This document shows positions 2 to 16,026 of a DNA stretch of 42,172 bases, one piece after another. The number at the start of each line of letters is the position of its first letter. Position 1 is the first letter of the stretch. The DNA is from a virus: positions 1 to 42,172 of IMG/VR virus record IMGVR_UViG_3300034106_004416; one strand, 5' to 3'. A program made the position numbers and the translations under genes. Below the pieces are notes generated by a model. The model had not been told where the DNA came from. It made no database searches and saw nothing but the letters and a program-made list of their open reading frames with translations.

Positions 2-949
2 AACATGAATATTGTCACCAGTAATCATGTTAAAAAAGTATTTGAATCAGCACAATATCAAAAACAATTCGAAGATGGTAGAAAAGAACTTCTTAAAAGT
101 GATAAACCAATGGAAGTATGTTTCTGGGGTGCAGATACAAACATCTATAAAAAAACCGATGAAAAAGTCGAATCAATTGAAAATGTTTTATCGTCAATTC
201 CCGAAAAGTTTGCGTTCTTGTTTGTAGGACAATGGACACATAGAAGTTTGTATAATGATCGAAAAGACATTGGAAATCTTATTAAGACATTTAGCAATGC
301 ATTTAAAAATAAATCTCCAGAGAATAGACCATGTTTGTTGTTAAAAACAAGCGGAGTGAATTTCTCGGTTGTTGATCGTGATGAAATTCTAAGTAGAATT
401 AAACAAATTCAATCAGAAGTTGGTGATAACTGTCCTAATGTATATCTACTTCACGGTGAATTAACACCCACTGAAATGAATGGTTTGTTAAATCATGAAA
501 AGGTAAGAGTTCATGTTAGCTTTACTCATGGTGAAGGATTTGGACATCCGTTATTACTTGCTACATTGAGTGGTAAACCTGTATTATCCTCAAATTGGAG
601 TGGACATTTAGATTTTCTAAATCCAAAGTATACATCCTTCTTTGAAGGTTCACTCAAACAAATAGATCCATCATCTGCAAATGATTGGTTAATTAAAGAA
701 TCAAGTTGGTTTTATGTTGCTTATGGATTAGCAGAAGATAAGTTTAAACAATATTATCATAGTTATAATCAATCATATACAGATAAAGCAGAACAACTTA
801 GACTCGAAAATATGGAAAACTTTAGTCTAAATGCAATGGATAAAAAACTATGGGGGATTTTGGATAAATATGTCCCAGAATTCGCAGTAGAAAAGAAAAT
901 TGTACTGCCTAAACTGAAGAAAATTGAACTTCCTAAGATAAATAAATAA
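2..949 (+). CDS. GT4-type glycosyltransferase, 5' truncated
   Basis: Retaining glycosyltransferase of the GT-B fold (GT4/glycogen-synthase type) that would transfer a sugar from a nucleotide-sugar donor to a growing glycan. The visible part starts at the hinge before the C-terminal Rossmann domain (TSNHVKKVF near the first residues). It carries the donor-binding segment HGEGFGHPLLLA around residues 176-187, which fits the family's EX7E region. The N-terminal acceptor domain expected for this family is missing and the frame is open to base 2, so the Met at base 5 is probably internal and the gene begins outside the window. First visible gene of the plus-strand glycan island; the next gene starts 7 bases after its stop. 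The acceptor and donor sugars cannot be told from sequence. Confidence 0.8.
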   Translation, partial: NMNIVTSNHVKKVFESAQYQKQFEDGRKELLKSDKPMEVCFWGADTNIYKKTDEKVESIENVLSSIPEKFAFLFVGQWTHRSLYNDRKDIGNLIKTFSNAFKNKSPENRPCLLLKTSGVNFSVVDRDEILSRIKQIQSEVGDNCPNVYLLHGELTPTEMNGLLNHEKVRVHVSFTHGEGFGHPLLLATLSGKPVLSSNWSGHLDFLNPKYTSFFEGSLKQIDPSSANDWLIKESSWFYVAYGLAEDKFKQYYHSYNQSYTDKAEQLRLENMENFSLNAMDKKLWGILDKYVPEFAVEKKIVLPKLKKIELPKINK

Positions 950-956: not shown

Positions 957-1625
957 ATGTCAACACCATTTATATCATATTTAGTAACTTGTAAAAATAC
1001 AGGATTTGAACTTCAAATTCTATTAGAAAGATTATTTAAGTATGGTCAAGACAATGAATGTATTGTATTAGATGATTATAGTGATAATGCTGATACATTA
1101 CAAATATTAAGTAATATTTCGAATAATAGTTTCTTTAAAATTTATAAACATAAATTGGACAGAAATTATAGTGAACACAAAAATTATGGTAAAAATCAAT
1201 GTAAAGGAAAATATATTTTTCAAATTGACGATGATGAATTACCTTCCGAAATGTTATTAGAATCATTAAAAGAATTGATTGAATTAAATAATGATGTTGA
1301 CTTATTTTGGATTCCTCGTATAAATGATTTTAGAGGAGTAAACCATGATAATGCAAAACAATGGGGTTGGAGACTAACTCCATATGAAGACAGATTAATT
1401 GTTAATTGGCCTGATCCACAAGGTAGAGTATTTAAAAATACATCTTACATTGAATGGAAACGACGATTACACGAAAAAGTAGAAGGTGCAAAGACATATG
1501 TTCATTTACCGGCAGTATATGATCTATCTTTACATCACAATAAAACTATAGAAAAACAAATAGACACAAATATTAAGTATAATAAATTATTTACTGAAGA
1601 AGAAAATAAAGGATTTAAAGTATGA
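957..1625 (+). CDS. GT2-family glycosyltransferase
   Basis: Probable inverting GT-A-fold glycosyltransferase of 222 residues. The N-terminus has a typical GT2 opening (beta strand ISYLVTCKN, then IVLDDYSDN, residues about 36-44). A QIDDDE stretch near residue 90 supplies the DxD-type metal and nucleotide-sugar site. A conserved acceptor-side region with Trp and His follows (WKRRLHEKV). It is short but complete for a single-domain GT2. The stop overlaps the next start by 4 bases (ATGA), which suggests translational coupling. No membrane segment is seen, so it should act in the cytoplasm. Substrate unknown. Confidence 0.8.
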   Translation: MSTPFISYLVTCKNTGFELQILLERLFKYGQDNECIVLDDYSDNADTLQILSNISNNSFFKIYKHKLDRNYSEHKNYGKNQCKGKYIFQIDDDELPSEMLLESLKELIELNNDVDLFWIPRINDFRGVNHDNAKQWGWRLTPYEDRLIVNWPDPQGRVFKNTSYIEWKRRLHEKVEGAKTYVHLPAVYDLSLHHNKTIEKQIDTNIKYNKLFTEEENKGFKV

Positions 1626-2623
1626 ATAATCAACAAAAAATTGCAATTGTATTAGGTGCTGGCGGATTTATTGGCGGACATTTAGTTAAAAGACTAAAAG
1701 AAGAAGGTTATTGGGTTCGTGGTGTTGATATTAAAAATAATGAATATCATAATTATGCAGATGATTTTGTTCTTGGAGATCTTACAGACCCAAATGTAGT
1801 AAAATCAGTAATTCCAGAAAATGCTGATGAAGTATATCAATTAGCGGCTGATATGGGTGGAGCATTATATATTTTCACAGGTCAAAATGATGCGAATGTA
1901 ATGCATAATTCAGCATTAATTAATTTAAATGTTGTTCATGAATGTACAAAGAAAAAAGTAAAGAAGGTATTTTATTCCTCTAGTGCATGTGCATATCCTG
2001 AATATAATCAAATGGACCCAAATAATCCAAAATGTGCAGAAAAAGATGCATATCCTGCTGAACCAGACAGTGAATATGGATGGGAAAAGTTATTTAGTGA
2101 AAGATTGTATTTAGCATATAATAGAAATCATAAGTTAGATGTAAGAATTGCTAGATTTCATAATATCTTTGGTCCATGTGGAACATATAAAGGTGGAAAA
2201 GAAAAGGCACCTGCAGCAATGTGTAGAAAAGCTCTTGAATCTTCTGATAATAGTGAAATCGAAGTTTGGGGAGATGGACTACAAACTCGTTCGTTTTTAT
2301 ATATCGACGACTGTGTAGAAGCAGTATTAAGATTTATGAGACAAGATAACTTCTTGGGACCAGTAAATATTGGTTCCGAAGAAATGGTAACAATTAATCA
2401 ATTAGCACAAATTGCAATCGATTTGACGGGTAAAAATATAAAGATTAAAAACCTTGCTGGCGAAGAATTCCGTCAAAAGTATGGGTTTAAATGCCCAACA
2501 GGTGTAAGAGGTAGAAATTCCGATAATACTTTATATCGTGAAAAGATGGGATGGGAACCATCACAACCATTAAAAGTTGGAATTGAAAAAACATTCAATT
2601 GGATAAAAAAACAAAATTTATAA
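1622..2623 (+). CDS. gme: GDP-mannose 3,5-epimerase
   Basis: Extended SDR enzyme predicted to convert GDP-D-mannose to GDP-L-galactose (and GDP-L-gulose). It resembles the plant enzyme closely along its whole length. The NAD-binding GAGGFIG is at residues 12-18, and the family signature AADMGG is near 75-80. The catalytic Cys lies in SSACAYPE (C123), the YxxxK pair in YGWEK (Y152, K156), the second catalytic Lys in GGKEKAPAAM (K195), and the substrate Arg in GVRGRNSDN. All residues known as catalytic in the plant protein are present. Length, 333 residues, is normal. It overlaps the preceding GT2 gene by 4 bases. In this cluster it would supply a hexose that is a close analogue of L-fucose, relevant to the downstream fucosyltransferase-like genes (inference). 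Confidence 0.9.
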   Translation: MNNQQKIAIVLGAGGFIGGHLVKRLKEEGYWVRGVDIKNNEYHNYADDFVLGDLTDPNVVKSVIPENADEVYQLAADMGGALYIFTGQNDANVMHNSALINLNVVHECTKKKVKKVFYSSSACAYPEYNQMDPNNPKCAEKDAYPAEPDSEYGWEKLFSERLYLAYNRNHKLDVRIARFHNIFGPCGTYKGGKEKAPAAMCRKALESSDNSEIEVWGDGLQTRSFLYIDDCVEAVLRFMRQDNFLGPVNIGSEEMVTINQLAQIAIDLTGKNIKIKNLAGEEFRQKYGFKCPTGVRGRNSDNTLYREKMGWEPSQPLKVGIEKTFNWIKKQNL

Positions 2624-2637: not shown

Positions 2638-3258
2638 ATGTATTACGCTGCAAATAATATTGATAAAATTGTAAGAGAAAATTTTTTCTCAAACAAACTC
2701 AATGGATTTTTTTTAGATATTGGTGCATTCGATGGTATAAGTATTAATAACACTTTACACTTTGAAGAATCTGGTTGGAACGGAATTTGTTTTGAACCAT
2801 TTCCAGAAATTTATAAACAATTAATAAATAATAGAAAGTGTAAAACCGTCAATAAAGCAATATCAAATAAAACTGAAATCCGAAAGTTTTTTAAAATTGA
2901 TGGTTATTCATCAACTTTAAGTGGATTTGTGGACACATATACACAAGAACATATAGAACGAATTGTTAGAGAAATAGAAGAAAAAAATCAAACATATGAT
3001 TATATCGATGTTGAATGCACTACATTTTCTAATGAAGTAAAAGAAAAAGAAATTGATTTATTGTCAATTGATACAGAGGGATCTGAATTGATGATTTTAG
3101 AATCTATAGATTTTTCACATTATTATATAAAAGTAATGATCTTGGAATATAACTATCATAATGAAAAAATATTAAAATTATTAAATGATAATGGATTTGA
3201 AATTCTAAAACAAATTGGTGTAGATTTAATAATAAAAAATAAAAAGTTTATTCCATAA
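2638..3258 (+). CDS. FkbM-family methyltransferase
   Basis: SAM-dependent O-methyltransferase of the FkbM family, 206 residues. The SAM-binding loop is FLDIGAFDG near residues 25-33, followed by CFEPFPEIY, where the acidic residue contacts the ribose. The family's C-terminal motif IDLLSIDTEGSE lies near residues 140-151. Such enzymes methylate hydroxyls on polysaccharides and other small substrates and are common in capsule and O-antigen loci. The gene lies between two sugar-nucleotide genes with gaps under 20 bases, so it is probably in the same operon. The exact acceptor is not predictable. Confidence 0.82.
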   Translation: MYYAANNIDKIVRENFFSNKLNGFFLDIGAFDGISINNTLHFEESGWNGICFEPFPEIYKQLINNRKCKTVNKAISNKTEIRKFFKIDGYSSTLSGFVDTYTQEHIERIVREIEEKNQTYDYIDVECTTFSNEVKEKEIDLLSIDTEGSELMILESIDFSHYYIKVMILEYNYHNEKILKLLNDNGFEILKQIGVDLIIKNKKFIP

Positions 3259-3269: not shown

Positions 3270-4385
3270 ATGGCAACACTAACAATGAATAAAAATATAT
3301 CTATAATTGGAATTGGTAAATTAGGCATTTGTCTAGCACTAAATTTAGAAAAAAATGGATATAATGTAATTGGAATTGATTTAAATCAAGAATATGTCAA
3401 TTCTATCAATAATAAAGATTTAATATCAGACGAACCGTTTGTAGAAGAGTATCTTAAAAATTCAAAAAATCTTAAGGCTACAACAGATATATCTAAATCA
3501 TTAGAAAATGATATTATATTCATCACGGTAGCAACACCTTCTTTGTCATCAGGAAAATACGATCACAAACAAATTGACAATGTAATAAATCGATTATTGA
3601 ACTGTGGCAAACAATTAACAAAAAAATATTTAATTATTAATTGTACTACAATGCCAATGTATTGTGAATCGTTACAGGAAAAAATACGAGAATATAACTA
3701 TGAAATTTGTTATAATCCTGAATTTATAGCACAAGGAACAATTATCAAAAACCAACAGTATCCAGATATTGTCCTTATAGGATCGAATACCAATGATATT
3801 GGTGATATAGTTGAAAGTATATATAAAGATATTTGTAAAAATAATCCAAGTGTACATAGAATATCAATCACTGAATCGGAAATAATGAAAATTGCGTTGA
3901 ATTGTTTTCTCACTACAAAAATTTCATATGCAAACATGGTAGGTGATATTGCTATTGCTGTAGGATGTGATCCAGAAAAAATATTATCTGCAATTGGAAG
4001 TGATAGTAGAATTGGTAATAAATATCTAAAATATGGATTTGGTTTTGGAGGTCCATGTTTTCCTAGAGATAATAGAGCATTTGGTTTGTTTTGTGAAGAA
4101 AATGGAATTTATCCTCATATCAGTTATGCAACGGATCAAAGTAATAAGTCTCACATATTATATCAATTAAATCACACAGAAAATAAAATTTCAAAAGATG
4201 AAACTATCACATTTGACAGTATTACTTATAAAGCAGAATCAACTATATTGGATGAGTCCCAACAATTAAAATATGCATTTGAACTGACAGAAAGAGGATA
4301 TTCAGTACATATTAATGAAAGACCGACAATAATAAATAAACTAAAAGAGTTATATGGAAACCGATTTACTTACAGTATCAGATAA
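3270..4385 (+). CDS. UDP-glucose/GDP-mannose dehydrogenase family protein
   Basis: NAD-dependent four-electron dehydrogenase of the UDP-glucose/GDP-mannose 6-dehydrogenase family, which oxidises a nucleotide hexose at C6 to the uronic acid. The Rossmann glycine motif GIGKLG is at residues 14-19 and the catalytic Cys in GGPCFPRD at about residue 263. It is short for the family (371 residues) and the C-terminal UDP-binding domain looks reduced, so the nucleotide preference is open. Two possible Met starts lie 15 bases apart (3270 and 3285); the second sits directly before the first beta strand. The 3' end overlaps the NAD synthetase gene by 32 bases. NAD is the cofactor here, an interesting pairing with that neighbour. 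Confidence 0.8.
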   Translation: MATLTMNKNISIIGIGKLGICLALNLEKNGYNVIGIDLNQEYVNSINNKDLISDEPFVEEYLKNSKNLKATTDISKSLENDIIFITVATPSLSSGKYDHKQIDNVINRLLNCGKQLTKKYLIINCTTMPMYCESLQEKIREYNYEICYNPEFIAQGTIIKNQQYPDIVLIGSNTNDIGDIVESIYKDICKNNPSVHRISITESEIMKIALNCFLTTKISYANMVGDIAIAVGCDPEKILSAIGSDSRIGNKYLKYGFGFGGPCFPRDNRAFGLFCEENGIYPHISYATDQSNKSHILYQLNHTENKISKDETITFDSITYKAESTILDESQQLKYAFELTERGYSVHINERPTIINKLKELYGNRFTYSIR

Positions 4386-5115
4386 AATAATAGATTGGAT
4401 TAAAAATTACGTACAAACAAATAAATTAACAAGCCTAGTAATAGGTGTTAGTGGAGGTGTAGATAGCGGTTTAGTAAGTACATTATGTGCAAAAACAAAA
4501 TTGTCTACATATGTGATTAGTATACCTATTCATCAAGAACATTTTCAGTTAGAAAGAGCAAAAAATCATTGTAAATGGTTAACAGATAACTTTGATAATG
4601 TAACATTTATTGAAAAAGATCTAACTAATACATTTGATGTGTTCAAATCATTATTTAGTAACGATTACAACAAAGAATTATCTTTCGCAAATAGTAAATC
4701 CAGACTCAGAATGATTACGCTTTATCAAGTTGCAGGTTCGACAAATGGAATTGTTGTTGGTACAGGAAATAAAGTAGAAGATTTTGGTGTTGGATTTTAT
4801 ACAAAATATGGTGACGGTGGAGTTGATATTTCTCCAATTGCAGATCTTACAAAAACAGAAGTAAGAAAAATGGCAAAAACCATAGGTGTTCCTGAATACA
4901 TTGTTACTGCTAAACCTACTGATGGACTATGGGAAGATAATAGAACAGATGAAGACCAAATTGGTGCTTCATATGAAGAATTAGAATGGGCAATGAAATT
5001 TGAAGGAACGCATAGTGATTTAACAGATCGACAACATCAGATATTAAAAATATACAATAAATTTAATACACAAAATAAACATAAGATGTTATCAATTCCT
5101 ATTTTTAAAAAGTAA
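4354..5115 (+). CDS. nadE: NH3-dependent NAD synthetase (NadE-like)
   Basis: ATP-pyrophosphatase that would amidate nicotinic acid adenine dinucleotide to NAD+. The PP-loop SGGVDS is at residues 33-38. Family signatures follow in order: NSKSRLRM near residue 110, GTGNKVEDFGVGF then KYGDGGVDISPIADLTK near 140-170, and PTDGLWEDN(R)TDEDQIG near 190-205. There is no N-terminal glutaminase domain, so it belongs to the ammonia-dependent form of about 250-270 residues. The start overlaps the dehydrogenase gene by 32 bases, an unusually long overlap for this cluster. A cofactor enzyme inside a glycan operon is odd. It may support the NAD-dependent sugar enzymes or replenish NAD depleted by host defence, or it may have been recruited to amidate a sugar precursor; all three are inference. 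Confidence 0.85.
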   Translation: METDLLTVSDKIIDWIKNYVQTNKLTSLVIGVSGGVDSGLVSTLCAKTKLSTYVISIPIHQEHFQLERAKNHCKWLTDNFDNVTFIEKDLTNTFDVFKSLFSNDYNKELSFANSKSRLRMITLYQVAGSTNGIVVGTGNKVEDFGVGFYTKYGDGGVDISPIADLTKTEVRKMAKTIGVPEYIVTAKPTDGLWEDNRTDEDQIGASYEELEWAMKFEGTHSDLTDRQHQILKIYNKFNTQNKHKMLSIPIFKK

Positions 5116-5117: not shown

Positions 5118-6167
5118 ATGAATATTTTAATTACAGGTGCGGGTGGATTAATTGGATCGGAAGCAGTAGATTTTTATTCAAAAACAGGAAATGATGTATA
5201 CGGTATAGAAAATAATCAAAGACAAATATTTTTTGGTGAAAAAGGAAATACATCTAAAAGATTAGGTGAATTAAAAAATAAATATCAAAATTTCATAAAC
5301 TTTAATATTGATATAAGAAATAAAAATCAGTTAATAAATCTATTTGAAGGATTAAAGTTTGATGTAGTAATTCATACTGCTGCACAACCAAGTCATGACA
5401 AAGCGTCTTCTATTCCATTTGATGATTTTGAGACAAATGCCAACGGTACTTTGCATCTTTTAGAATGTGTTAGACAAAAAAATAAAGATTGTATTTTTAT
5501 TCATATGTCAACAAATAAAGTATATGGGGATAAACCAAATACTATAAAATTAAAAGAATTAGAAACCAGATATGATTATGATGATGTAAATTACATTAAT
5601 GGAATAGATGAAACATTTTCAATTGACGGTTCTACACATTCATTATTTGGAGCTTCAAAAGTAGCGGCAGATATTTTAGTACAAGAATACGGCAGATACT
5701 TTCAAATTCCAACAGTTTGTTTAAGAGGGGGATGTTTAACAGGAGAAAACCATAGTGGTGTTGAATTACATGGATTTTTAAATTATTTAATAAAATGTAA
5801 TTTATCAAATGTACAATATAATATTTTTGGTTATAAAGGTAAACAAGTTCGTGATAATATACATTCGTCTGATGTTATTCAATTTATGAATTTATTTATC
5901 AAAAATCCCAGAATAGCAGAAGTATATAACATTGGAGGTGGAAAAAACAATACTTGTTCTATTTTAGAAACATTTCAAATTGTCGAAAATATTACAGGAA
6001 AAAAAATGATTTATGATTATATAGAAAAAAATCGAATTGGCGATCATATTTGTTATTATAGTAATTTAGATAAAATAAAAACTCATTATCCACAATTTGA
6101 AATAACAAAATCATTTGAAAACATTGTAAAAAGAATATACGAGAAGTACTTATATGAATCAAAATAA
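5118..6167 (+). CDS. CDP-paratose/tyvelose 2-epimerase-like SDR
   Basis: Extended SDR epimerase of 349 residues resembling CDP-paratose 2-epimerase (RfbE/Tyv), which interconverts CDP-paratose and CDP-tyvelose. GAGGLIG at residues 7-13 binds NAD. Family hallmarks are AAQPSHD near residue 93, MSTNKVYGD near 130, [11 protein letters not shown] (the YxxxK region, with Phe-Gly-Ala-Ser-Lys in place of the usual Tyr spacing) near 178, RGGCLTG near 203, and a [14 protein letters not shown] block near 236. It follows nadE after 2 bases and overlaps the methyltransferase by 14 bases. With the E1-type dehydrase encoded at 13902-15194 it points to a 3,6-dideoxyhexose. The true nucleotide carrier (CDP or dTDP) is uncertain. 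Confidence 0.82.
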
Positions 6168-6972
6168 AACAATAAATGCAGTCAAAAATTTTTGGAATAA
6201 TAGACCATGTAATATAAAACATTCTGATAAACCAATTGGTTCGATTGAATATTTTAACGAAGTTGAACAACGAAAATATTTTGTTGAACCTCATATACCA
6301 CTATTTGCAGATTTTTCTAAATGGAAAAATAAAAAAGTATTAGAAATTGGATGTGGAATTGGTACTGATTCTATTAATTTTGCTAGAGCAGGAGCAGATT
6401 TAACATGTATAGAATTGTCAGAAGAATCTTTAAATTTATGTAAACAAAGATTTGATGCTTTTGGATTAAAAGCAACATTCTTATTAGGTAATGCTGAAGA
6501 AATTGATTCATTATTAAAAGGAGAATCTTTTGATTTAATTTATTCATTTGGTGTAATTCATCATACTCCTAATCCTGAAAAAGTCATACAAGCAATTAAG
6601 AAACTAACTCATAGTAATACAATTATAAAAATCATGTTGTATTCAACGGTTTCATATAAAACCTTAGAATCATTAATTACCAATGGGTATAAATTTAATT
6701 TTAATTTTAAAAAGTCTATACAATATTATGCAGAAGCACAATTAGGTTGTCCTGTAGCAAATACATACTTAAAGAATGAATTATATGATTTATTTAAAGA
6801 TTATGATATAATCAGTTGTAAAAAAACTCACATCTTTCCTTATATAATTAAATATTACATACAAAAAATATATAAAAAACGATGGTTTTTCAAATTTATG
6901 CCAAATTTTATGTTTTCATCATTAGAATCTTTAATTGGTTGGCATTGGTTGATAGAAGTAAAACCAAAATAA
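6154..6972 (+). CDS. class I SAM-dependent methyltransferase
   Basis: Class I methyltransferase with a Rossmann-like core of 272 residues. Motif [13 protein letters not shown] lies near residue 65, an acidic ribose-binding residue in CIELS near residue 87, and motif [18 protein letters not shown] near residue 128. The C-terminal third is basic and aromatic, possibly for membrane or lipid-linked substrate contact, but no clear membrane helix is visible. It overlaps the epimerase gene by 14 bases. Position in the glycan island suggests methylation of a sugar or lipid-linked intermediate; the substrate is unknown. Confidence 0.75.
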
Positions 6973-7015
6973 AATTACTTGTGTATTAATTTTACAATGT
7001 TATTATTTAATTATT

Positions 7016-7837
7016 ATGTATATAAAATCAAATTACATTTCTTCTGACAGTTTCGTAAAACATTTTGATAAATTATCGAATGTAAATTTCAGTTTCTTTT
7101 ACGACTATATACCAACAAAAGATGAATTAAATATTAATGAAATCAATATTTTCTGTCATAGTGAACCGGATGAATATTTTGGACACCATAAGTGGATAGA
7201 AAATAATTTTAATAGTTTTTCTTTGGTATTGACTTGGAATGAAAGAATTATTAAAAAATGTTCAAATTCAGTATTATTACTTTATGGTGAACCTTGGATT
7301 GATCAATATAATGAAGAATCAATATATGAAAATGTAAAAAAAGAATTTGAAATTTGTTTTATTAGAGGAAATAAATTGATGTCAGGTGGACATCTACTAC
7401 GACATCAAATTTTTGATAGACAAGATGAAATCGTTATTCCAAAAAGATTTTATAGTCATACTGATGTATCTTCTGCAAAAAAACTAATCGACGGTAAAGT
7501 TAATGCACATCAAAAATCAATGTATTCCTTGATAGTAGAGAATACATCACATCATAATTATTTTACTGAGAAAATTTCTGACGCAATTATTATGAAATCT
7601 ATTCCAATTTATTGGGGATGTAGTAATATTGAAAAGTATTATGATATAGACGGTATAATTCAAATAAAAAGTGATGATGATGCTATAGAAAAAATTAATT
7701 CACTGACTCCTGAATTTTACGAAAGTAAGAAAGAGGTAATTGAAAAAAATTATAGACGTTCATTTGAATATAGAAATTATAATCAAAGAATAGCTAACAC
7801 ACTAGATAGTATATTTAAATTAAATAAATTTATATGA
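7016..7837 (+). CDS. GT10-like (alpha-1,3-fucosyltransferase type) glycosyltransferase
   Basis: Probable GT-B glycosyltransferase related to family GT10, the alpha-1,3/4-fucosyltransferases. The diagnostic donor-binding stretch lies at residues 172-201: LIVENTS, then YFTEKISDA, then SIPIYWG. It matches the family pattern of an Asn/Ser pair, a Tyr, TEK and PIYWG. The N-terminal half is divergent, as usual in the family. GT10 enzymes use GDP-L-fucose; no GDP-fucose synthesis genes are in the window, so the donor may be made elsewhere or may be GDP-L-galactose from the epimerase at 1622 (inference). A 43-base AT-rich gap precedes it; its stop overlaps the GT6 start by 4 bases. Confidence 0.72.
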   Translation: MYIKSNYISSDSFVKHFDKLSNVNFSFFYDYIPTKDELNINEINIFCHSEPDEYFGHHKWIENNFNSFSLVLTWNERIIKKCSNSVLLLYGEPWIDQYNEESIYENVKKEFEICFIRGNKLMSGGHLLRHQIFDRQDEIVIPKRFYSHTDVSSAKKLIDGKVNAHQKSMYSLIVENTSHHNYFTEKISDAIIMKSIPIYWGCSNIEKYYDIDGIIQIKSDDDAIEKINSLTPEFYESKKEVIEKNYRRSFEYRNYNQRIANTLDSIFKLNKFI

Positions 7838-8553
7838 GTATCGGAATTATTTGTTTGGCGAATGGACCATATTCGATTTTTATTGACAATTTAATCGAAA
7901 GTTGTGAACAACACTTTTTACTTAATCACAAAAAACAATTTTTTATTATTACGGATAATGAATTTTCAAATAAAAATAAAGAAAATGTAACAACTATTTA
8001 TAAAAAAAGAAATGGATGGCCGTTAGATTGTTTACTAAGATCACAATATTCGTATGAATTAAAAAATAAAACATCACATTTAAGTCATGTATATTTTTTT
8101 AATGCAAATATGTCATTTTATTCAACTATTGATGAAAATATACTTCCAGATAAAAGTGGATTAGTAGGTGTAGAACATGCGTGTTATGTACATAGAAACA
8201 ATAATTTATTTACATACGATAGAAATCCAAGTACACATGCATATATTCCATATGACCAAGGTAAAATATATTACCAAGCATGTCTATGGGGAGGAACAAC
8301 AGAAAAATTCATGTGTCTTAGTGAAACAATTATGAATTGGACAAATGTTGATATTCAAAACAAAACAGAACCCATTTGGTTAGATGAATCATATTTGAAT
8401 AAATATTTTTTAACTAATCCTCCTAAAACACTATCACCGTTTTATGCATGGCCTACACATATGAGTGGATATAATGATATATCTAATTTAAAAATTTTAC
8501 AATTACAGAAAAAAGATTATATCAAACAAGAAAACTTTCAATATATAGAATAA
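7834..8553 (+). CDS. GT6-family (ABO-like) glycosyltransferase with NxN motif
   Basis: Retaining GT-A glycosyltransferase of family GT6, the family of the human blood-group A/B transferases and alpha-1,3-galactosyltransferase. Diagnostic blocks in order are YFFNANMSF (residues 87-95), a GVEHACY loop at about 112-118, TYDRNPSTHAYIP (127-139), DQGKIYYQACLWGG (141-154), and IWLDESYLNKYF (181-192), holding the acidic catalytic region. The metal-binding DxD of vertebrate enzymes is replaced by Asn-Ala-Asn (90-92), the NxN form known from bacterial and cyanophage members. It has no membrane anchor and, at 239 residues, matches the catalytic domain alone. Coupled by 4-base overlap to the GT10-like gene. 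The donor is probably UDP-Gal or UDP-GalNAc (family knowledge). Confidence 0.88.
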   Translation: MSIGIICLANGPYSIFIDNLIESCEQHFLLNHKKQFFIITDNEFSNKNKENVTTIYKKRNGWPLDCLLRSQYSYELKNKTSHLSHVYFFNANMSFYSTIDENILPDKSGLVGVEHACYVHRNNNLFTYDRNPSTHAYIPYDQGKIYYQACLWGGTTEKFMCLSETIMNWTNVDIQNKTEPIWLDESYLNKYFLTNPPKTLSPFYAWPTHMSGYNDISNLKILQLQKKDYIKQENFQYIE

Positions 8554-8558
8554 TTTAA

Positions 8559-9326
8559 ATGAATATATTGATTTTAGGACATAATGGATATTTGGGATCG
8601 TACTTATCAAAACATTTAAATTCTGATATATTATTTTATAGAAATGTATATGATAATGGAAATAAATATGACTATATCATAAATTGTATTGGTAGAGCAG
8701 ACTTAGAATATTGTGAGAAAAATGGTGAAGAATCAGAATATTGTAATAAAAATATTATATCTGATATTATCAAATGTTATCCTCTTGCAAAAATAATTAA
8801 CTTTTCTTCTTATTATGTATATGATGATACGCCAATATGTTCAGAAAACTCAAATGTAACATATAAATATAATTATACCCGTCATAAATTAGAAAGCGAA
8901 CAACTAATTAAAAATGGAGTTACATTTAGAATCGGAAAATTATTTGGTAATACAATCAAAAGTCAAAATAAATTAACTGAACATATATTGTCAAACGATG
9001 TCGTTAAATTAGATAATATTAAATTTAACCCAACAAGTGTTAGTCAAATATTAGATATAATAAAATGGGAACTTGAATATAATAAATTATACGGTACATT
9101 TAATGTAGCAAACGACGAATATTGTACACACTATGAGTATGGATTATTTATAGACAAAATTTTAAACTCAAAGAAATGTATAATAAATGTAGAAAATATC
9201 GGTAAAAATTTTCATAATTATGGACGATTTTTAATGTCCTGTGATAAAATTAAACAATATATAACTCTTAGAAACTGGAAAAATGATGTTGAAAAATACA
9301 TTATTAATTATAAAAATAATATATGA
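8559..9326 (+). CDS. short RmlD-like NAD(P)-dependent sugar reductase/epimerase
   Basis: SDR protein of 255 residues. The dinucleotide-binding motif GHNGYLG is at residues 7-13, an NCIGRADLEYCE segment near 46-57 resembles the NCAAYT...E region of RmlD reductases, INFSSYYVYDD near 81-91 contains the Ser, and YTRHK near 108 gives the YxxxK catalytic pair. It is shorter than typical dTDP-4-dehydrorhamnose reductases (about 290). A plausible role is reduction of a 4-keto-deoxysugar, the step still missing after the RmlB and E1-type enzymes, but this is inference. The stop overlaps the next gene by 4 bases. Confidence 0.7.
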   Translation: MNILILGHNGYLGSYLSKHLNSDILFYRNVYDNGNKYDYIINCIGRADLEYCEKNGEESEYCNKNIISDIIKCYPLAKIINFSSYYVYDDTPICSENSNVTYKYNYTRHKLESEQLIKNGVTFRIGKLFGNTIKSQNKLTEHILSNDVVKLDNIKFNPTSVSQILDIIKWELEYNKLYGTFNVANDEYCTHYEYGLFIDKILNSKKCIINVENIGKNFHNYGRFLMSCDKIKQYITLRNWKNDVEKYIINYKNNI

Positions 9327-10207
9327 AGACTCAAATAGTAATACATCTATTACCAACAGAAATTGATGACTTTGAATGGCAAGTAAAACAATTAAAACTT
9401 GCTAGCTTTTATTTAAATAAAACCGATACTATTAATATAGATGTAACACTAAATCTAAATTTAGTTGATTGGAAAGAATCTAAATTTGAAAAACAATATT
9501 TTGTTGATAAATTTAATAATATTAAAAAACTTTGCAATTTTTGTGAAGATACAATATTTGAAATTGATGAAAATAATAAAGTACTTGGATGTGATGATAA
9601 ACGACGACAAACTATTCGAAAAGTCGATGATTCGATAAAAAATATAATTTATTTAGACTGTGATATTATTTTTACGCCCGAAACATTAAAGTATATATTG
9701 GACAGTACAGCATTAGTTGATAGTAAATACTACATTATATCACCACAAATTACAAAAGCTTGGGATAATACATGGGATTGTTTAGTTAATGATAATTATT
9801 TAAATCATCCATTGAATTATAATAGAGAATGTGATCCATATGAAACATCAATAATCAAAGATGAAATTAATTTGAAAAAAATAAACGAATTTAAATTTGG
9901 AGGTGGTTGGTTTAATCTTTTATCTACAAATCTATTAAAATTTACGGATATTCCTGATTCTTTTGGTCCATACGGTGTAGACGATACATATGTTATGATG
10001 TGTTCTCAATTGATGAAAAACAAAAGAATGGATGTTCAACAATATGTAATAGAAAACTTAATTGTCTCAGAAAATTATAAATATAGGTTTAACCCATATG
10101 AAAACTATTTAAAATGTATAAACAAAAAAGATGAATATAGAAAAAATGCGGAGGCAAATTTTTCCATTGAATTGAATAAATTTTATAATAAATTAAATAA
10201 TCTATGA
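9323..10207 (+). CDS. putative GT-A glycosyltransferase, family not recognised
   Basis: A 294-residue protein with GT-A-like features but no family I can name. A strand followed by IIYLDCDIIF near residues 107-116 supplies a DxD-like metal site. FGGGWFNLLS near 189-198 resembles the acceptor-side GGG/Trp loop of GT2-like enzymes, and FGPYGVDDTYVM near 213-224 carries an acidic pair in the usual catalytic-base position. No signal peptide or membrane segment. Four-base overlaps with both neighbours place it firmly in the glycan operon, which supports a glycosyltransferase role. Confidence 0.6.
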   Translation: MKTQIVIHLLPTEIDDFEWQVKQLKLASFYLNKTDTINIDVTLNLNLVDWKESKFEKQYFVDKFNNIKKLCNFCEDTIFEIDENNKVLGCDDKRRQTIRKVDDSIKNIIYLDCDIIFTPETLKYILDSTALVDSKYYIISPQITKAWDNTWDCLVNDNYLNHPLNYNRECDPYETSIIKDEINLKKINEFKFGGGWFNLLSTNLLKFTDIPDSFGPYGVDDTYVMMCSQLMKNKRMDVQQYVIENLIVSENYKYRFNPYENYLKCINKKDEYRKNAEANFSIELNKFYNKLNNL

Positions 10208-11034
10208 TTACAAATCAAGAAATTGGGTATAATGGTAGGCTTGGAAATCAAATGTTTCAATATGCAGTATTATTAAATCTTGCCAGTAAATTAAATACAG
10301 ATGTAGTTCTTCCGCTTAAAAATAATGATATTAAACCAGATGGATGTTTTGACTATTCTGTCAATAATTGGATTCCATATAAATTAGACTTATATGACTG
10401 TTTTAATATTACCGCAGTACAATCAAATAATATTGATATAAAACATGTATACAAAGAACCGCATTTTAATTATTCTGATACGATTAATAGTGTAATCGAT
10501 AATACATCTGTACAAGGTTATTTTCAAAGTGATAAATATTTTACTAATTCAAAAGAAAAAGTTCTATCCGAATTTGTCTTTAAAGATACAATAGAAATTG
10601 AAGCCAACTCATTCATAAATGATATTAAAAGTAATGTGGATGGAAGAGAAATAGTTGGAATACATGTTCGTCGAGGAGATGCAGTTGTAAATCCGACTTT
10701 TCATTTACTAAATGTAGAATATTTTGTATCTTGTATAACCAAATATTTTACAGATACTGAATATGCATTTGTATTTATTTCTGATGACATACAATGGTGT
10801 AAAAATACATTCGATAGTGCGGACAATGTGTTTTTTACCGGAAGATCTTCATTTGTTGATTTAAGTATAATGAGCAAATGTGATCATAATATTATATCTA
10901 ATTCTAGTTATAGTTGGTGGGGAGCTTATTTAAATAAAAATAAAAATAAAAAAATAGTATCACCATCTAAATGGTTTAAAAGCGAATCAATAATAATGAA
11001 AGATTTATATTGTAAAGATTGGATAATCGAATAA
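10204..11034 (+). CDS. GT11 alpha-1,2-fucosyltransferase
   Basis: Inverting GT-B enzyme of family GT11, which transfers L-fucose from GDP-fucose in alpha-1,2 linkage, usually onto galactose. The family start motif GRLGNQMFQYA is at residues 11-21, the donor-binding HVRRGD at 154-159, and the C-terminal SNSSYSWWGAYL near 232-243. VQGYFQSDKYF near 103-113 is also typical. At 276 residues it is near the usual 280-300. The start overlaps the preceding gene by 4 bases. Together with the GT6 and GT10-like genes it forms the enzyme trio that makes H, A/B and Lewis-type structures in other organisms. Confidence 0.92.
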   Translation: MITNQEIGYNGRLGNQMFQYAVLLNLASKLNTDVVLPLKNNDIKPDGCFDYSVNNWIPYKLDLYDCFNITAVQSNNIDIKHVYKEPHFNYSDTINSVIDNTSVQGYFQSDKYFTNSKEKVLSEFVFKDTIEIEANSFINDIKSNVDGREIVGIHVRRGDAVVNPTFHLLNVEYFVSCITKYFTDTEYAFVFISDDIQWCKNTFDSADNVFFTGRSSFVDLSIMSKCDHNIISNSSYSWWGAYLNKNKNKKIVSPSKWFKSESIIMKDLYCKDWIIE

Positions 11035-11046
11035 AATTTAAACAAA

Positions 11047-11973
11047 ATGAAAAAATTTATAGTTACAACTACAATTAATAAACCTACAAAAGCAACATTA
11101 AAGTTTTGTGAAATTGCAAAAAATCAAAACTGGCAATTTGTTATTGTTGGAGATTTGAAAACTCCTCATGACGAATATAAAGCATTAGAGAATGATAATG
11201 TAATTTATTTATCACCAGAAAAACAAGAATCTTTTTGTAAAGAATTGAGTGATATTATTGGATGGAGAACTATTCAACGAAGAAATATTGGATTTGTATA
11301 TACATACAGACAAGGTGCAGATTTAATCGCAACAGTAGATGATGACAATATTCCATATGAAAATTGGGGTGACAATATATTAGTAGATAAAGAAGTTGAA
11401 GTAGACATTTATACTAACTTATATAGTAATTATTTTGATCCAATTTCAGTAACAAATTGTAATGATCTATGGCATAGAGGATATCCAATCGAATGCCTAA
11501 ATGTTAAAAACAATAATGAATACAAAGGTAAATTTAAACGCAATGTATTAATTCAAGCCGACTTTTGGGATGGTGATCCTGATATAGACGCAATTTGTAG
11601 ATTAAGTAAAAAACCAATAGTAAAATTTAACAAATTTGATCCATTTGCATCAACTCAACTTGCACCGTTTAATTCACAAAATACATTCTTATCAAGAAAA
11701 GTATTGCCATTTTATGCAGTTTTACCATATATAGGAAGAATGGATGATATATGGGGAAGTTACATTACACAACATTATTTCCCAAATAGTGTTGTTTATA
11801 ATAAAGCTACTGTATATCAAGAAAGAAATGTTCAAGATCTAATTAAAAACATGGAAAATGAAGTAATTGGATACAAAAATACATTTAAATTATTAAATGA
11901 TATATCCAATTATCAATCATATTTACCTGAACAAACTCTCAATTTTTGGAATGTTTATAGAAACCAATTTTAA
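11047..11973 (+). CDS. STELLO/DUF288-like glycosyltransferase
   Basis: A 308-residue protein resembling the catalytic part of the STELLO/DUF288 family of GT-A-like proteins. It starts with KFIVTTTINKPT, has WQFVIVGDLKTP near residues 30-41, and shows the family's core RRNIGFVYTYRQGADLIA then TVDDDNIP near 79-103, where the DDD is the likely metal and nucleotide-sugar site. No membrane anchor is present, unlike plant STELLO proteins. Members are common in phage and bacterial surface-glycan loci, where their exact acceptors are unknown. It begins 12 bases after the GT11 stop. Confidence 0.65.
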   Translation: MKKFIVTTTINKPTKATLKFCEIAKNQNWQFVIVGDLKTPHDEYKALENDNVIYLSPEKQESFCKELSDIIGWRTIQRRNIGFVYTYRQGADLIATVDDDNIPYENWGDNILVDKEVEVDIYTNLYSNYFDPISVTNCNDLWHRGYPIECLNVKNNNEYKGKFKRNVLIQADFWDGDPDIDAICRLSKKPIVKFNKFDPFASTQLAPFNSQNTFLSRKVLPFYAVLPYIGRMDDIWGSYITQHYFPNSVVYNKATVYQERNVQDLIKNMENEVIGYKNTFKLLNDISNYQSYLPEQTLNFWNVYRNQF

Positions 11974-11976
11974 TAT

Positions 11977-12849
11977 ATGAAATTATCAGCTGTTATAGTA
12001 TCAAGAAACGACAATTACGGTGGAAATCTAATTGAAAGATCAACATATTGTTTCAATTCAATGATCGACACATTTGATGAAGTATTTTACATCGACTGGA
12101 ATAGTGACACTCACAGTTTATTATATGATGTAAAAGATAATGTTCAATTCAAAGGAAACTTTCATCACATCGTAATAGAACCAAAAATTGCTAAAATACT
12201 TACAAATTATGACCCACAAGCACAAAAATGTTGTGAAGTCTTAGGAAGAAATATTGGATTGCGAAGATCCTCAGGCGAATGGATAATTTCTACAAATATT
12301 GATATTATTGCTCCTAAAAGAGATGAATTGATAAATACTATCAATGGTTTAGACAATAACACATTTTATACAATAAGTAGAAGAGGAATTGATTTGGAAA
12401 AAATTATAGAATTCCATAAAACAGGCAATTGTGAATATAAAAAATGGAAAGAATTGAGAGAGTATGCAATAGAAACATCGGAAGAAAGATATTTCGACGA
12501 AAAAACAGTTGAAGACGACAATTATAGTATCGTAAATTGTTGTGGCGATTTTCAATTGGCACATAGAAATGTATGGCACACAATAAAAGGAATGGAAGAG
12601 GAATTGATCTATCCATTGTATGCAGATACAAATGTACAAAAGAAAGCTGTTATGCATGGTTTTGGATTAAAAGCAATCTATAATCCCGCATTATTTCATA
12701 TTAATCATGGCAAAGGAGGAGGAGGATTTTTGTCAGGAATTAATAGAAAACCAAATGATATACACCGAGCAATAACATATCAATTTAAAACACTAAATCC
12801 AGAAACATGGGGATTTAGTGATATAGAAATTGAGTATGAAATTTTATAA
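11977..12849 (+). CDS. GT2-like glycosyltransferase
   Basis: A 290-residue GT-A-type protein and the last plus-strand gene of the island. The N-terminal SAVIVSRNDNYGGN resembles a GT2 first strand and donor loop. RNIGLRRSSGEWIISTNIDII near residues 88-108 matches the GT2 helix and the DxD region (here Asn-Ile-Asp), and a GDFQLAHRNVW...GMEE block near 188-207 matches the C-terminal acceptor domain of galactosyltransferase or chondroitin-polymerase-like enzymes. Its stop codon overlaps the stop of the oppositely oriented rmlB by 6 bases, leaving no space for a separate terminator. Substrate unknown. Confidence 0.68.
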   Translation: MKLSAVIVSRNDNYGGNLIERSTYCFNSMIDTFDEVFYIDWNSDTHSLLYDVKDNVQFKGNFHHIVIEPKIAKILTNYDPQAQKCCEVLGRNIGLRRSSGEWIISTNIDIIAPKRDELINTINGLDNNTFYTISRRGIDLEKIIEFHKTGNCEYKKWKELREYAIETSEERYFDEKTVEDDNYSIVNCCGDFQLAHRNVWHTIKGMEEELIYPLYADTNVQKKAVMHGFGLKAIYNPALFHINHGKGGGGFLSGINRKPNDIHRAITYQFKTLNPETWGFSDIEIEYEIL

Positions 12850-13800
12850 ATAACTTTTTACTGTTTTTCTCAAACTTTCATTGAATTCACTCAATTTAAA
12901 ATTGGGGAATTCCATTAAAAAGTCTTTATTATCAATTGCATATCTAAAATCATGGCCAGGACGATCAGATACATATTCAAACCATTCCCAGTCAACTTTT
13001 TGATTTGTAATGGTTTCATATACAGCAACAATCGAATGAATTAATTGTATATTAGACATTTCATTGTTGCCCCCAATCAAATATTGTTTTCCTATAATAC
13101 CATCTAATAGAACATTAATTAACGCACTAACATGGTCTTTAACATAGATCCAATCTCTAATATTCAAACCATTTCCGTATAATGGTATTGTTTCTTTATT
13201 TTTTAACTTGTTAATACAGACTGGTATAAACTTTTCTGAATATTGTCTCGGTCCAAAATTATTACTACAATTTGTAATTATTGCAGGAAAATTATAAGTC
13301 TTAACATAACTTCTTACTAAGAAGTCGCTAGCTGCTTTACTTGCAGCATATGGACTGTTTGGTCTATAAGCACTATCAATATTAAATTCTCTTTCTTTAT
13401 AATTTAAACTACCAAATACTTCATCGGTAGATACATGTATGAATTTCTGTATGTTTATACTTTTAAACATTTCTAATAAATTAAAAGTGCCAACAATATT
13501 TGTGTCTATAAACTTTTTTGGTCCTACAATAGAATTATCTACATGAGACTCTGCTGCAAAATGTATTATATAATTTAAATTTAATGATTCAAAATAACTT
13601 TTTTGATTTGGAAAATATGCAGCGTATATATCCATTGTCAACTTTTGATATCTATCGTCAGATTCAAATGGAAGATTTTTATTTGATGCATATGTATTTG
13701 CATCCAAATTATATAATTTTGTAATATCGTCTTTTTTAAGGATTTCTTCAATAAAATGACTTCCAATAAATCCACTTCCGCCTGTAACTAGTATATTCAT
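12844..13800 (-). CDS. rmlB: dTDP-glucose 4,6-dehydratase
   Basis: Extended SDR enzyme that turns dTDP-glucose into dTDP-4-keto-6-deoxyglucose, the branch point for rhamnose and many deoxysugars. The NAD motif TGGSGFIGSH lies at residues 6-15, AAESHVDNSI at 82-91, STDEVFGSL (catalytic Thr-Asp-Glu) at 124-132 and YAASKAASD (YxxxK, Y151/K155) at 151-159. The length of 318 residues is normal. Third gene of a divergent minus-strand group with rmlA and the E1-type dehydrase, separated from the latter by a roughly 100-base AT-rich gap in which I see no clear hairpin. CDP-glucose dehydratase is a possible alternative, but the motifs favour RmlB. Confidence 0.9.
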   Translation of the reverse strand: MNILVTGGSGFIGSHFIEEILKKDDITKLYNLDANTYASNKNLPFESDDRYQKLTMDIYAAYFPNQKSYFESLNLNYIIHFAAESHVDNSIVGPKKFIDTNIVGTFNLLEMFKSINIQKFIHVSTDEVFGSLNYKEREFNIDSAYRPNSPYAASKAASDFLVRSYVKTYNFPAIITNCSNNFGPRQYSEKFIPVCINKLKNKETIPLYGNGLNIRDWIYVKDHVSALINVLLDGIIGKQYLIGGNNEMSNIQLIHSIVAVYETITNQKVDWEWFEYVSDRPGHDFRYAIDNKDFLMEFPNFKLSEFNESLRKTVKSYL

Positions 13801-13901: not shown

Positions 13902-15194
13902 TCAACTTTCATACTTCTGAACAATTTCTTTAATATAATCTAAATTGTCCTGGGTTAATGTTGGTGAGGAACCTAAAAAGAATACATTACCAAGTACATT
14001 GGTTGCATTTGGGTAGTTCCTCCAAGTTTCTAAATGTGTATACGCAGGGTGTAATAAAATATTACCAGCAAAATAATTTCTGGTTTGAATACCGTGTGTT
14101 TCAAGATAAATAACCAACTTACTCTTTTGTTCAAATGTTTCACAAATTACTGGTACACCAAACCAAGATACATCAGCTTTATCATGTTTGATTGGAAATC
14201 TTAGTCCTTTAATCGAAGATAAAATATTTTGTATAATATCTTTGTTTTTCTTTCTTGCTTCATGAATCCCATCAGCTTTCTTTAACTGTGACAGTCCAAT
14301 GCCACCTTGTAGATCCAATGGTTTTAAATTGTATCCAATCTGGGAGAAGAAATATTTATGGTCAATTTCATATGGAAGTTCTTTAATCCATTGACTAAAT
14401 CTGCAATTACAACTACCGTTCTTTAACAAATTTGCAGGACCAACACAATAACAGTCCCGACCCCACCAAGCAAATGTTCTAGCCAACTTAACAATTTCTT
14501 CAATATTGGATGATACCATACCACCTTCACCAGTAGTGATGTGATGTGCGGGATAAAAACTACAACTTGTAGCAATAGCATATTCATCCAAATGTTTACC
14601 ATTCCATTTGCTACCATAACTGTCACAACCATCCATAATGATTTCAAGGTTATGAGTTTTAGCAATTTCTACCAATCTATCCATGTCAGGTGGATTTCCT
14701 AATACAGGAGATACAAATATAGCTTTGGTATTTGAAGTAATCTTTTTTACCAATTCATCCAAATCAAAATTAAGTGTGTTGTATTCAATATCAACAAATA
14801 CAGGTTTTAATCCATTTTGAATAACTGGATTCAATGTAGTTGGAAATCCAACAACTGATATTAGAATTTCATCAGTAGAAGTCCATTTGAAATATTGTTT
14901 AAGTGATGCAATCATTACAAGATTAGCTGAACTGCCAGAATTTACCATTACAGAATATTTTTGGTTTACTGTCTTACTAAACTCTCTTTCAAACTGATAT
15001 ACTTTTTCACCACTAACAAACCACTTGCCAAACAACAATGAATCAATTGCTTCTGTTAATTCATCTTCATCCATTAATGGACCGGAATAATATACTTTGT
15101 CTTTAGCACCTTTAAGATTATGACAATATTCCGGCACAAATTGAGTCTTTTGTACTTCTTTAATAAAATTTCTAATTAATTCTTTTTTATTCAT
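13902..15194 (-). CDS. E1-type PMP/[2Fe-2S] sugar 3-dehydrase (RfbH/DdhC-like)
   Basis: A member of the DegT/DnrJ/EryC1/StrS fold that, in its E1 subgroup, removes the 3-hydroxyl of a 4-keto-6-deoxy nucleotide sugar. The PLP-binding Lys of aminotransferases is replaced by His in SFYPAHHITTGEGG (H217), the hallmark of PMP-dependent dehydrases. Iron-sulfur cysteines are also in place: C190, then exactly 57 residues to C248, one residue to C250, then C262/C264 (the last gap is longer than the classical seven). Start chosen at 15194 because it makes an ATGAATAA overlap with the rmlA stop; an upstream Met at 15239 would add 15 residues. The expected reductase partner (DdhD/E3) is not in the window. 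Classical E1 acts on the CDP sugar, while the neighbours make dTDP sugars. Confidence 0.86.
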   Translation of the reverse strand: MNKKELIRNFIKEVQKTQFVPEYCHNLKGAKDKVYYSGPLMDEDELTEAIDSLLFGKWFVSGEKVYQFEREFSKTVNQKYSVMVNSGSSANLVMIASLKQYFKWTSTDEILISVVGFPTTLNPVIQNGLKPVFVDIEYNTLNFDLDELVKKITSNTKAIFVSPVLGNPPDMDRLVEIAKTHNLEIIMDGCDSYGSKWNGKHLDEYAIATSCSFYPAHHITTGEGGMVSSNIEEIVKLARTFAWWGRDCYCVGPANLLKNGSCNCRFSQWIKELPYEIDHKYFFSQIGYNLKPLDLQGGIGLSQLKKADGIHEARKKNKDIIQNILSSIKGLRFPIKHDKADVSWFGVPVICETFEQKSKLVIYLETHGIQTRNYFAGNILLHPAYTHLETWRNYPNATNVLGNVFFLGSSPTLTQDNLDYIKEIVQKYES

Positions 15195-16026
15195 ATTTCT
15201 GTAAATAAGATTTATACTCTGATTTTGGTAATTTATCAATCACTTTTTTAAGTTGATTTTTATTTATAAAACCTTTGTTGTAACATTCTTCTTCAACACA
15301 TCCAATTCTTATTCCCTGTCTTTCTTGAATAGTTTTAACATAAGCCGCACTTTGAAATAAAGTATCAGGCTGTCCTGCATCCAACCAAGCAGTTCCTCTA
15401 GGAAATTTGATTACATCTATAGCATCATTATTTAAATATATATTCATAATATCAGTTATTTCTAATTCACCTCTCTTGGAAGGTTTTAACGATTTAGAAT
15501 ATCCAATTACTTTATTATCAAAGAAATATAAACCTGGTATTGCATAACTACTAATAAATTCTTTTGGTTTTTCTACAATCTGTTTTATATTATCTCCATC
15601 AAATTGTACAACTGCATAATCCCATGGATTTGTTACTTCATATGCAAATACTAAAGAACCTTTAAAATCCATCTTGGTTCTAGGTATACCATGAAAAATA
15701 TTATCACCCAATATTAAAGATACATTATCATTCCCAATAAAATCTTCGGCAATAATAAACGATTCGGCAATACCATTAGGTTTATATTGTACTTTATATA
15801 CAATGTCTAATCCAAGATGATTTCCATTACCAAACATTCTTTCATACATTGGAAGATATTCAGGAGATGATATAATACAAAACTCTTTAATACCACAACT
15901 AATCATAGTACTAAGAGGATAATAAATCATGGGTTTGTCATAAACAGGCAACAATTGTTTATTTACAACAGTTGTAAGTGGATATAATCTGTTACCAGAT
16001 CCACCAGATAAAATAATTCCTTTCAT
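15187..16026 (-). CDS. rmlA: glucose-1-phosphate thymidylyltransferase
   Basis: Nucleotidyltransferase that condenses glucose-1-phosphate and dTTP into dTDP-glucose. The N-terminus has the signature GGSGNRLYPLT at residues 8-18 and KQLLPVYDKPMIYYPLS near 24-40. LGDNIFHG near 110-117 holds the catalytic Asp, and WLDAGQPD near 222-229 is the C-terminal signature. The length of 279 residues is close to the usual 290. First gene of the minus-strand deoxysugar group; it reads divergently from the small membrane-protein gene at 16068 across a 41-base AT-rich gap. A TATAAATA sequence lies about 13 bases before the start. The last 8 bases overlap the start of the dehydrase gene. Confidence 0.93.
   Translation of the reverse strand: MKGIILSGGSGNRLYPLTTVVNKQLLPVYDKPMIYYPLSTMISCGIKEFCIISSPEYLPMYERMFGNGNHLGLDIVYKVQYKPNGIAESFIIAEDFIGNDNVSLILGDNIFHGIPRTKMDFKGSLVFAYEVTNPWDYAVVQFDGDNIKQIVEKPKEFISSYAIPGLYFFDNKVIGYSKSLKPSKRGELEITDIMNIYLNNDAIDVIKFPRGTAWLDAGQPDTLFQSAAYVKTIQERQGIRIGCVEEECYNKGFINKNQLKKVIDKLPKSEYKSYLQKYE

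Follow-up and report, generated by a model that had tools for sequence, protein, structure and literature searches.

It is a question whether three glycosyltransferase genes lying close together in a phage genome form one unit that assembles a histo-blood-group-like glycan, or belong to a different kind of pathway. The genes, resembling GT10, GT6 and GT11, the families of the human Lewis, ABO and H enzymes respectively, are in the virus contig IMGVR_UViG_3300034106_004416 (IMG/VR), a 42-kb fragment of 42,172 nt referred to here as the window. They are embedded in a larger set, a glycan cassette of approximately 18 genes filling 1-16 kb of the window:

5..949, +, GT4-like glycosyltransferase (PF00534, E=1e-4, below cut-off)
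957..1625, +, GT2 glycosyltransferase (PF00535, E=3e-13)
1622..2623, +, nucleotide-sugar epimerase/dehydratase (closest to a GDP-fucose synthase model, but far under its cut-off at 110.7 against 500 bits)
2638..3258, +, FkbM-type methyltransferase (PF05050, E=6e-18, and TIGR01444, over its cut-off)
3270..4385, +, UDP-glucose/nucleotide-sugar 6-dehydrogenase, for a uronic acid donor (TIGR03026, 234 bits, which exceeds the cut-off)
4354..5115, +, NAD-synthase-like amide ligase (PF02540, E=9e-51)
5118..6167, +, NDP-sugar epimerase/dehydratase (PF01370, E=7e-36)
6154..6972, +, SAM-dependent methyltransferase (PF13847, E=2e-20)
7016..7837, +, GT10-like glycosyltransferase, GT-B fold (PF00852; AF2 model)
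7834..8553, +, GT6 (ABO-type) glycosyltransferase (PF03414, E=2e-31; NAN motif 90-92)
8559..9326, +, RmlD-like NDP-sugar reductase (PF04321, E=1.5e-12; relative in the L014 cassette, below)
9323..10207, +, conserved protein, suspected GT-A-like transferase (DxD at 112-114; no family)
10204..11034, +, GT11 fucosyltransferase-family protein (PF01531, E=4e-29; HVRRGD)
11047..11973, +, cassette protein (no family in Pfam or PHROG)
11977..12849, +, cassette protein (no family in Pfam or PHROG)
12844..13800, -, RmlB-like dTDP-glucose 4,6-dehydratase (TIGR01181, 342 against a cut-off of 365 bits; 60% identical in the sister phage)
13902..15239, -, RfbH-like DegT-family PLP enzyme (NF011936, 370 against 423 bits; 74% identical in the sister phage)
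15187..16026, -, RmlA-like glucose-1-phosphate thymidylyltransferase (TIGR01207, 337 against 361 bits; 77% identical in the sister phage)

The preliminary description placed the three genes on one strand within 4 kb, joined by 4-base overlaps. The strand and the distance are right and such overlaps are real (7834/7837, 9323/9326 and 10204/10207), but the GT6 gene and the gene at 8559 are separated by a 5-base gap. The genes at 8559 and 9323, which were not mentioned, lie between GT6 and GT11, so the three glycosyltransferase genes are not consecutive. The 9323 protein belongs to no PHROG family and reaches the cut-off of no Pfam family, and its structure model, made from a three-sequence input, has a pLDDT of 38.7, too low to give a fold; the suspected GT-A-like assignment comes from its sequence.

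The earlier GT11 and GT6 identifications hold. The GT11 protein scores 102.1 bits against PF01531 (curated cut-off 23.9) and carries both GRLGNQMFQYA and the HxRRxD motif, as H154-V-R156-R157-G-D159, in which H154 and R156 are invariant and R157 and D159 nearly so (alignment A3). A sequence search against solved structures gave no convincing match for it. The GT11 family also includes alpha-1,3 enzymes such as HhFT2 (PMC4202792), and an alpha-1,2 linkage for the phage enzyme is therefore not certain.

The GT6 protein scores 109.4 bits against PF03414 (curated cut-off 25), and a sequence search of solved structures matches it to B. ovatus GT6 at E=1e-39 and, more distantly, to human ABO at about 1e-24. 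As had been noted, NxN (N90-A-N92) stands in place of DxD. The catalytic block is W182-L-D-E185-S, with the Glu (E185) present and a Leu replacing the usual His before Asp-Glu. The NxN form is found in 8 of 88 sequences in a motif census of phage GT6, but is common in bacterial GT6 and was rejected as unusual in itself. The donor-site triad is Q148-A149-C150, where many GT6 have a triad that ends in GG, and this QAC sequence suggests Gal or Glc, not GalNAc, as the donor sugar. Single-sequence scans with the window GT6 or the 9323 protein returned one relative each, and an alignment query was then used for GT6.

The cautious wording "GT10-like" for the gene at 7016 was apt. The protein scores 22.5 bits against PF00852 (E=1e-4) and does not reach the curated cut-off of 23.9; it is therefore named GT10-like and not filed as GT10. 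When its viral relatives are combined into a profile, H. pylori FucT is matched at 7.5e-14 and FUT9 at 9e-8. The GT10 donor motif E-N...T-E-K is present, with N176 and E185-K186 aligning with N240, E249 and K250 of H. pylori FucT and R129 aligning with FUT9 through the family profile; N176, E185, K186 and R129 are invariant in alignment A4. The AF2 model is a GT-B fold (pLDDT 76.8), in which the lead of FUT9 (Z 14.2) over plant FUT13 (13.4) and GT4-type enzymes (13.4) is slight, and Foldseek ranks other structures first.

The surroundings bear on the type of glycan. The neighbouring genes, with a nucleotide-sugar dehydrogenase, the NAD-synthase-like protein, RmlA-, RmlB- and RfbH-like enzymes and methyltransferases, favour an O-antigen-type chain over an animal-type glycan. 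The NAD-synthase-like protein may possibly amidate a uronate; its gene adjoins the nucleotide-sugar dehydrogenase gene in S-SCSM2R and Sf-FS3 too. The cassette conforms to the T4-like cyanophage LPS type, with contiguous sugar-nucleotide, glycosyltransferase and methyltransferase genes together with T4-like replication genes. The source is an uncultured T4-like phage, probably aquatic. The closest replication genes of named cyanophages are just 42-47% identical, and no photosynthesis gene was recognised in the 42-kb fragment. Flippase, polymerase, ligase and lipid-sugar initiator genes were not recognised among the scanned window proteins. Some of the comparable annotated cyanophage clusters include GDP-fucose genes; no GDP-mannose dehydratase was recognised in the 42-kb fragment, so GDP-fucose would come from the host or from the unsequenced part of the genome.

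It is clear that GT6 and GT11 are a recurrent pair in phages, with the GT10-like gene a looser extra that is not tied to the pair. A GT11 gene is present within 10 kb of 66 of 80 phage GT6 genes (40 of 50 after clustering at 90% identity) and of 7 of 80 phage GT10-like genes; the Fisher p for this difference is about 1e-22 unclustered and 5e-17 clustered, for loci that are not fully independent. None of the 80 GT10-like loci has a GT6 gene nearby. The GT10-like loci do contain relatives of the GT4-like gene at 5..949 (within 10 kb in 56 of 80 loci), the GT2 gene (59 of 80) and the 9323 gene (36 of 80). The bacterial assemblies Hoeflea MAG L264 and Candidatus Kuenenia MAG L283 each encode a protein that combines GT6 and GT11 domains, as expected if the two enzymes catalyse consecutive steps.

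The trio was described as unusual for a phage, which is fair, but it is not unique: five other IMG/VR contigs have all three, in one of them (L041) as adjacent genes. Inheritance of the trio as one module is rejected on the GT6 tree, in a quick version of which the trio label requires about 5 gains or losses, and on the content of a sister phage. The sister contig has related replication genes and a matching cassette with GT11 (43% identical), RmlA, RmlB, RfbH-like and 9323 (56%) relatives, a GT4-like gene (66%) and a GT2 gene (60%) that there adjoins GT11. Neither GT6 nor a GT10-like gene was found in it. The history of the cassette is mosaic.

Named phages carry parts of the trio. In P-SSM2 and ACG-2014f, both Kyanoviridae, the LPS clusters resemble that of the window in having annotated GT11 and GT6 less than about 2 kb apart, epimerases and other cassette genes. 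They differ in that their GT6 is of the DxD type rather than NAN, in having a GDP-mannose dehydratase, and in the absence of a GT10-like gene from the whole record. One paper (PMC12016548) assigns the GT6 and GT11 of phages to glycosphingolipid carbon sequestration and regards GT11 as new in phages; that view is not followed here, GT11 being annotated in P-SSM2. The clusters of S-SCSM2R, Sf-FS3 and S-SRM01 combine GT10-like and GT11 genes, as here, and the first two share the NAD-synthase-like and UDP-glucose dehydrogenase genes with the window, but GT6 is absent from the whole records of all three. The closest GT6 (65%) is in IMGVR_UViG_3300012665_001356 (L014), which also shares the GT11, RmlD-like, 9323-like, GT4-like, GT2, UGDH-like and RfbH-like genes, yet is without a GT10-like gene, and its 40-kb record is without a relative of the window DnaB.

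These comparisons make it very unlikely that the trio is a dedicated mimic module, with GT10, GT11 and GT6 jointly building histo-blood-group A/B-Lewis-type structures. The close spacing on one strand and the five other contigs are what such a module would lead one to expect, but GT10-like loci are enriched for neither partner, the trio label changes repeatedly on the GT6 tree, of the three genes the sister phage has GT11 alone, nothing was found pointing to an animal-associated host, and the cassette indicates non-animal sugars. Of the single branched oligosaccharide once proposed for the trio, the GT11-GT6 sequence is supported by co-occurrence and the bacterial fusions, while the trio as a unit is not. 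Similarly, "histo-blood-group-like" would apply at most to a terminal trisaccharide.

The reading favoured here, and judged somewhat better than an even chance, is an LPS/O-antigen-type surface-glycan cassette in which GT11 and then GT6 make an A/B-type cap, the GT10-like enzyme acts elsewhere, and the product coats the infected host. What the enzymes use, which linkages they form and in what order they act, like the target surface and the purpose of the glycan, is inferred from the genes and their relatives. GT11 would add alpha-1,2-fucose to a terminal galactose, the H-type step, and GT6, whose NAN type needs no metal in bacteria, would then add an alpha-1,3-linked hexose onto the same galactose, giving X-alpha-1,3-[Fuc-alpha-1,2-]Gal, an A/B-type trisaccharide. 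The GT10-like enzyme may transfer fucose, or the sugar of another GDP donor, at a different place in the chain, as part of a separate, interchangeable portion of the cassette, and the products of neighbouring genes would give the chain deoxy-sugar, uronate and O-methyl groups. No published biochemistry was found for phage GT6, GT11 or GT10-like proteins. For bacteria, E. coli O86 makes its B antigen with a GT6 (WbnI) and a GT11 fucosyltransferase (PMC4202792), and B. ovatus GT6a, an NXN form like that of the window, is metal-independent and uses 2'-fucosyl-lactose as acceptor (PMC3961637). In both, GT6 uses a fucosylated H-type acceptor from a GT11-type step, the order proposed for the window. 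Those systems are bacterial and biochemically demonstrated, whereas the window pair is phage-borne and read from sequence, and the B. ovatus donor triad is AGG rather than QAC.

The glycan most likely covers the infected cell, altering its appearance to other phages or grazers. That the cassette instead glycosylates the virion, on tail fibres or capsid, is unlikely, if less so than mimicry. Some large viruses, such as chlorovirus PBCV-1, glycosylate their own capsid (PMC7826918), and in ACG-2014f a tail-fibre gene is directly downstream of the LPS cluster. However, the window genes look like those of LPS/O-antigen sugar pathways, published work on related phages interprets such clusters as host-surface modification, and the scanned window proteins include none recognised as structural. 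It is also very unlikely that the genes are carried along as passengers or as filler for the genome, with little function. "Stuffer DNA" has been proposed for cyanophage LPS clusters (PMC3037559) and cassette content has turned over between the sister phages, but the reading frames are unbroken and closely spaced, with overlaps of 4 bases, the motifs are conserved in distant relatives, and the GT6-GT11 linkage persists despite the shuffling.

The cassette is thus a further example of the known cyanophage-type glycan cassette, with blood-group mimicry unlikely. A more specific proposal is a mobile, recurrent phage GT11-GT6 module that A/B-caps infected cells and exists in DxD (metal-dependent) and NxN (metal-independent) versions, and that in some phages, including this one, is joined by a GT10-like step to give a doubly fucosylated, Lewis-b/y-plus-A/B-like product; it has only an outside chance of being correct. 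If the GT11-GT6 pair works as proposed, many aquatic phages would encode the final two steps of an ABO-type antigen, and the control of superinfection by phages would be tied to the ecology of blood-group-like glycans. Gene shuffling between sister phages turns the cassette into a natural experiment on the remodelling of host surface sugars by phages.

The open reading frames, strands and motifs given for the three glycosyltransferases in the preliminary description were as stated when re-checked on the sequence, and its GT6 and GT11 assignments are both far above the Pfam cut-offs. Its GT10-like call for the gene at 7016 falls just under the Pfam GT10 cut-off, but is upheld by profile match and a GT-B model. 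The glycosyltransferases and neighbouring genes discussed here are:

5-949, plus strand, GT4-like
957-1625, plus strand, GT2
7016-7837, plus strand, GT10-like
7834-8553, plus strand, GT6
9323-10207, plus strand, conserved protein, suspected GT-A-like transferase
10204-11034, plus strand, GT11
12844-13800, minus strand, RmlB-like
13902-15239, minus strand, RfbH-like
15187-16026, minus strand, RmlA-like

The gene 7016 profile matches solved GT10 enzymes, and among the structural matches of its predicted model FUT9 and a plant fucosyltransferase lead, closely followed by GT4-type enzymes. In H. pylori FucT the counterparts of residues N176, E185 and K186 are N240, E249 and K250; the profile alignment pairs R129 with an arginine of FUT9. 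All four are invariant in distant phage relatives. In the GT10 family such donor-site residues are known to bind GDP-fucose, and they would be expected to do so here. The three enzymes are real, with gene 7016 described as 'GT10-like' only.

The window, an IMG/VR virus record of 42,172 bases, has no end repeats and is therefore probably a fragment. In its right half, the minus strand encodes replication and nucleotide functions: NrdA/NrdB, DnaB-like helicase, UvsX-like recombinase, 5'-3' exonuclease, gp32-like protein and family A DNA polymerase; one further match, to a clamp loader, is weak. A search of the window found no tRNA genes. Synechococcus and Microcystis phages are the nearest named for NrdB and DnaB (42-47% identity), and DnaB is 45% identical to that of an uncultured phage. 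Other minus-strand genes, some shared with the 96 kb sister phage IMGVR_UViG_3300032237_000764, are:

18568-19482, UvdE-type UV endonuclease (E=1e-39), sister-phage counterpart 58% identical
19923-21104, match to Druantia protein DruA (E=1e-21), within a phage genome
25972-26754, strong Mom family match (E=3e-42), suggesting DNA modification against restriction
40178-42157, 659-aa ORF, no match in Pfam, PHROG or named phages, 36% identical to a sister-phage ORF

Across 5-12849 (plus) and 16026-12844 (minus), the family-assigned genes are nearly all for sugar-nucleotide synthesis, glycosyl transfer or methylation. The RmlA-, RmlB- and RfbH-like proteins, each below its own equivalog cut-off, suggest a deoxy sugar, and two methyltransferases suggest O-methyl groups. 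An NAD-synthase-like gene (4354-5115, plus) adjoins a nucleotide-sugar dehydrogenase, as in phages S-SCSM2R and Sf-FS3; it may amidate a uronate donor rather than make NAD, and together the two genes point to a possible amidated uronic acid. Among the scanned window proteins, none was recognised as a flippase, polymerase, ligase or initiating transferase.

DxD is present in 80 of 88 phage GT6 proteins and NxN in 8, all of the latter having a QGC or QAC donor triad; NxN predominates at the bacterial GT6 loci compared. Among the retrieved contigs, the nearest relative of the window GT6 (65%) is that of L040/L014 (L014 being IMGVR_UViG_3300012665_001356); together they occupy a long branch on a quick GT6 tree. 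The donor choice of human ABO depends on its residues 266 and 268. The window triad Q148-A149-C150 aligns with this region and, as far as alignment indicates, speaks weakly against GalNAc as donor.

Of 80 GT6 loci, 66 have GT11 within 10 kb (40 of 50 when grouped into 90%-identity clusters), compared with 7 of 80 GT10-like loci, although the loci compared in the statistical test are related and the GT10-like loci, largely drawn from another phage lineage, are an imperfect control. GT11 is also nearby at 45 of 80 bacterial GT6 loci. Single bacterial ORFs with a GT6 then a GT11 domain (L264:9416-11590, Hoeflea MAG; L283:2008-3738, Candidatus Kuenenia MAG) suggest that both activities are paired in bacteria. 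It is plausible that the GT11-GT6 pair represents the H-to-A/B step. GT11 is fused to GT10 in an Akkermansia MAG (L247:12781-15084) and to GT2 in a Gastranaerophilales MAG (L217:8229-9989).

Relatives of the window GT4-like gene occur at 56 of 80 GT10-like loci versus 2 of 80 GT6 loci, those of GT2 at 59 versus 2, and those of the 9323 gene at 36 versus 3; the window therefore joins two gene pools. Among the 80 best-matching IMG/VR contigs for GT6, nine have a GT10-like gene, five of them (L041, L043, L055, L093 and L108, all viral) with the full trio. This combination requires five changes on the quick GT6 tree, and thus was probably assembled more than once; the proposal that the trio is one unit is not supported. 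In L041:4730-5995 and L043:9377-10702, an FkbM methyltransferase domain precedes GT6 in one fused ORF.

In the public phage collection, 71 records matched GT6, 102 GT11 and 19 GT10-like, for the most part Synechococcus and Prochlorococcus phages. The annotated GT6-GT11 spacing is about 0.8-1.5 kb in P-SSM2 and ACG-2014f, the two adjoin in DSL-LC02, DSL-LC03 and B23, and S-SRM01, S-SCSM2R and Sf-FS3 carry GT10-like and GT11. Of the named records tested, GT6 phages had no GT10-like gene and GT10-like phages no GT6. Phage GT6 was known by 2014 from two cyanophages (PMC3961637), and LPS clusters by 2010 from P-SSM2, S-SM2 and S-SSM7 (PMC3037559).

The sister phage has a DnaB 74% identical to that of the window, with other replication genes at 36-69%. 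It shares RmlA (77%), RfbH-like (74%), RmlB (60%), GT4-like (66%), GT2 (60%), a 9323 relative (56%) and GT11 (43%); neither GT6 nor GT10-like was found in its 96 kb. The sister phage has its GT11, GT2 and GT4-like genes together at 49.6-52.4 kb, encoded, like those of the window, on the other strand from RmlA/RfbH/RmlB. The comparison shows turnover within one matching cassette. The DnaB of large GT10-like contigs is mostly 37-44% identical to that of the window, and that of the two GT6 contigs with a match only 28%, which suggests that the GT10-like gene may be at home in the lineage of the window and that GT6 may be a newcomer.
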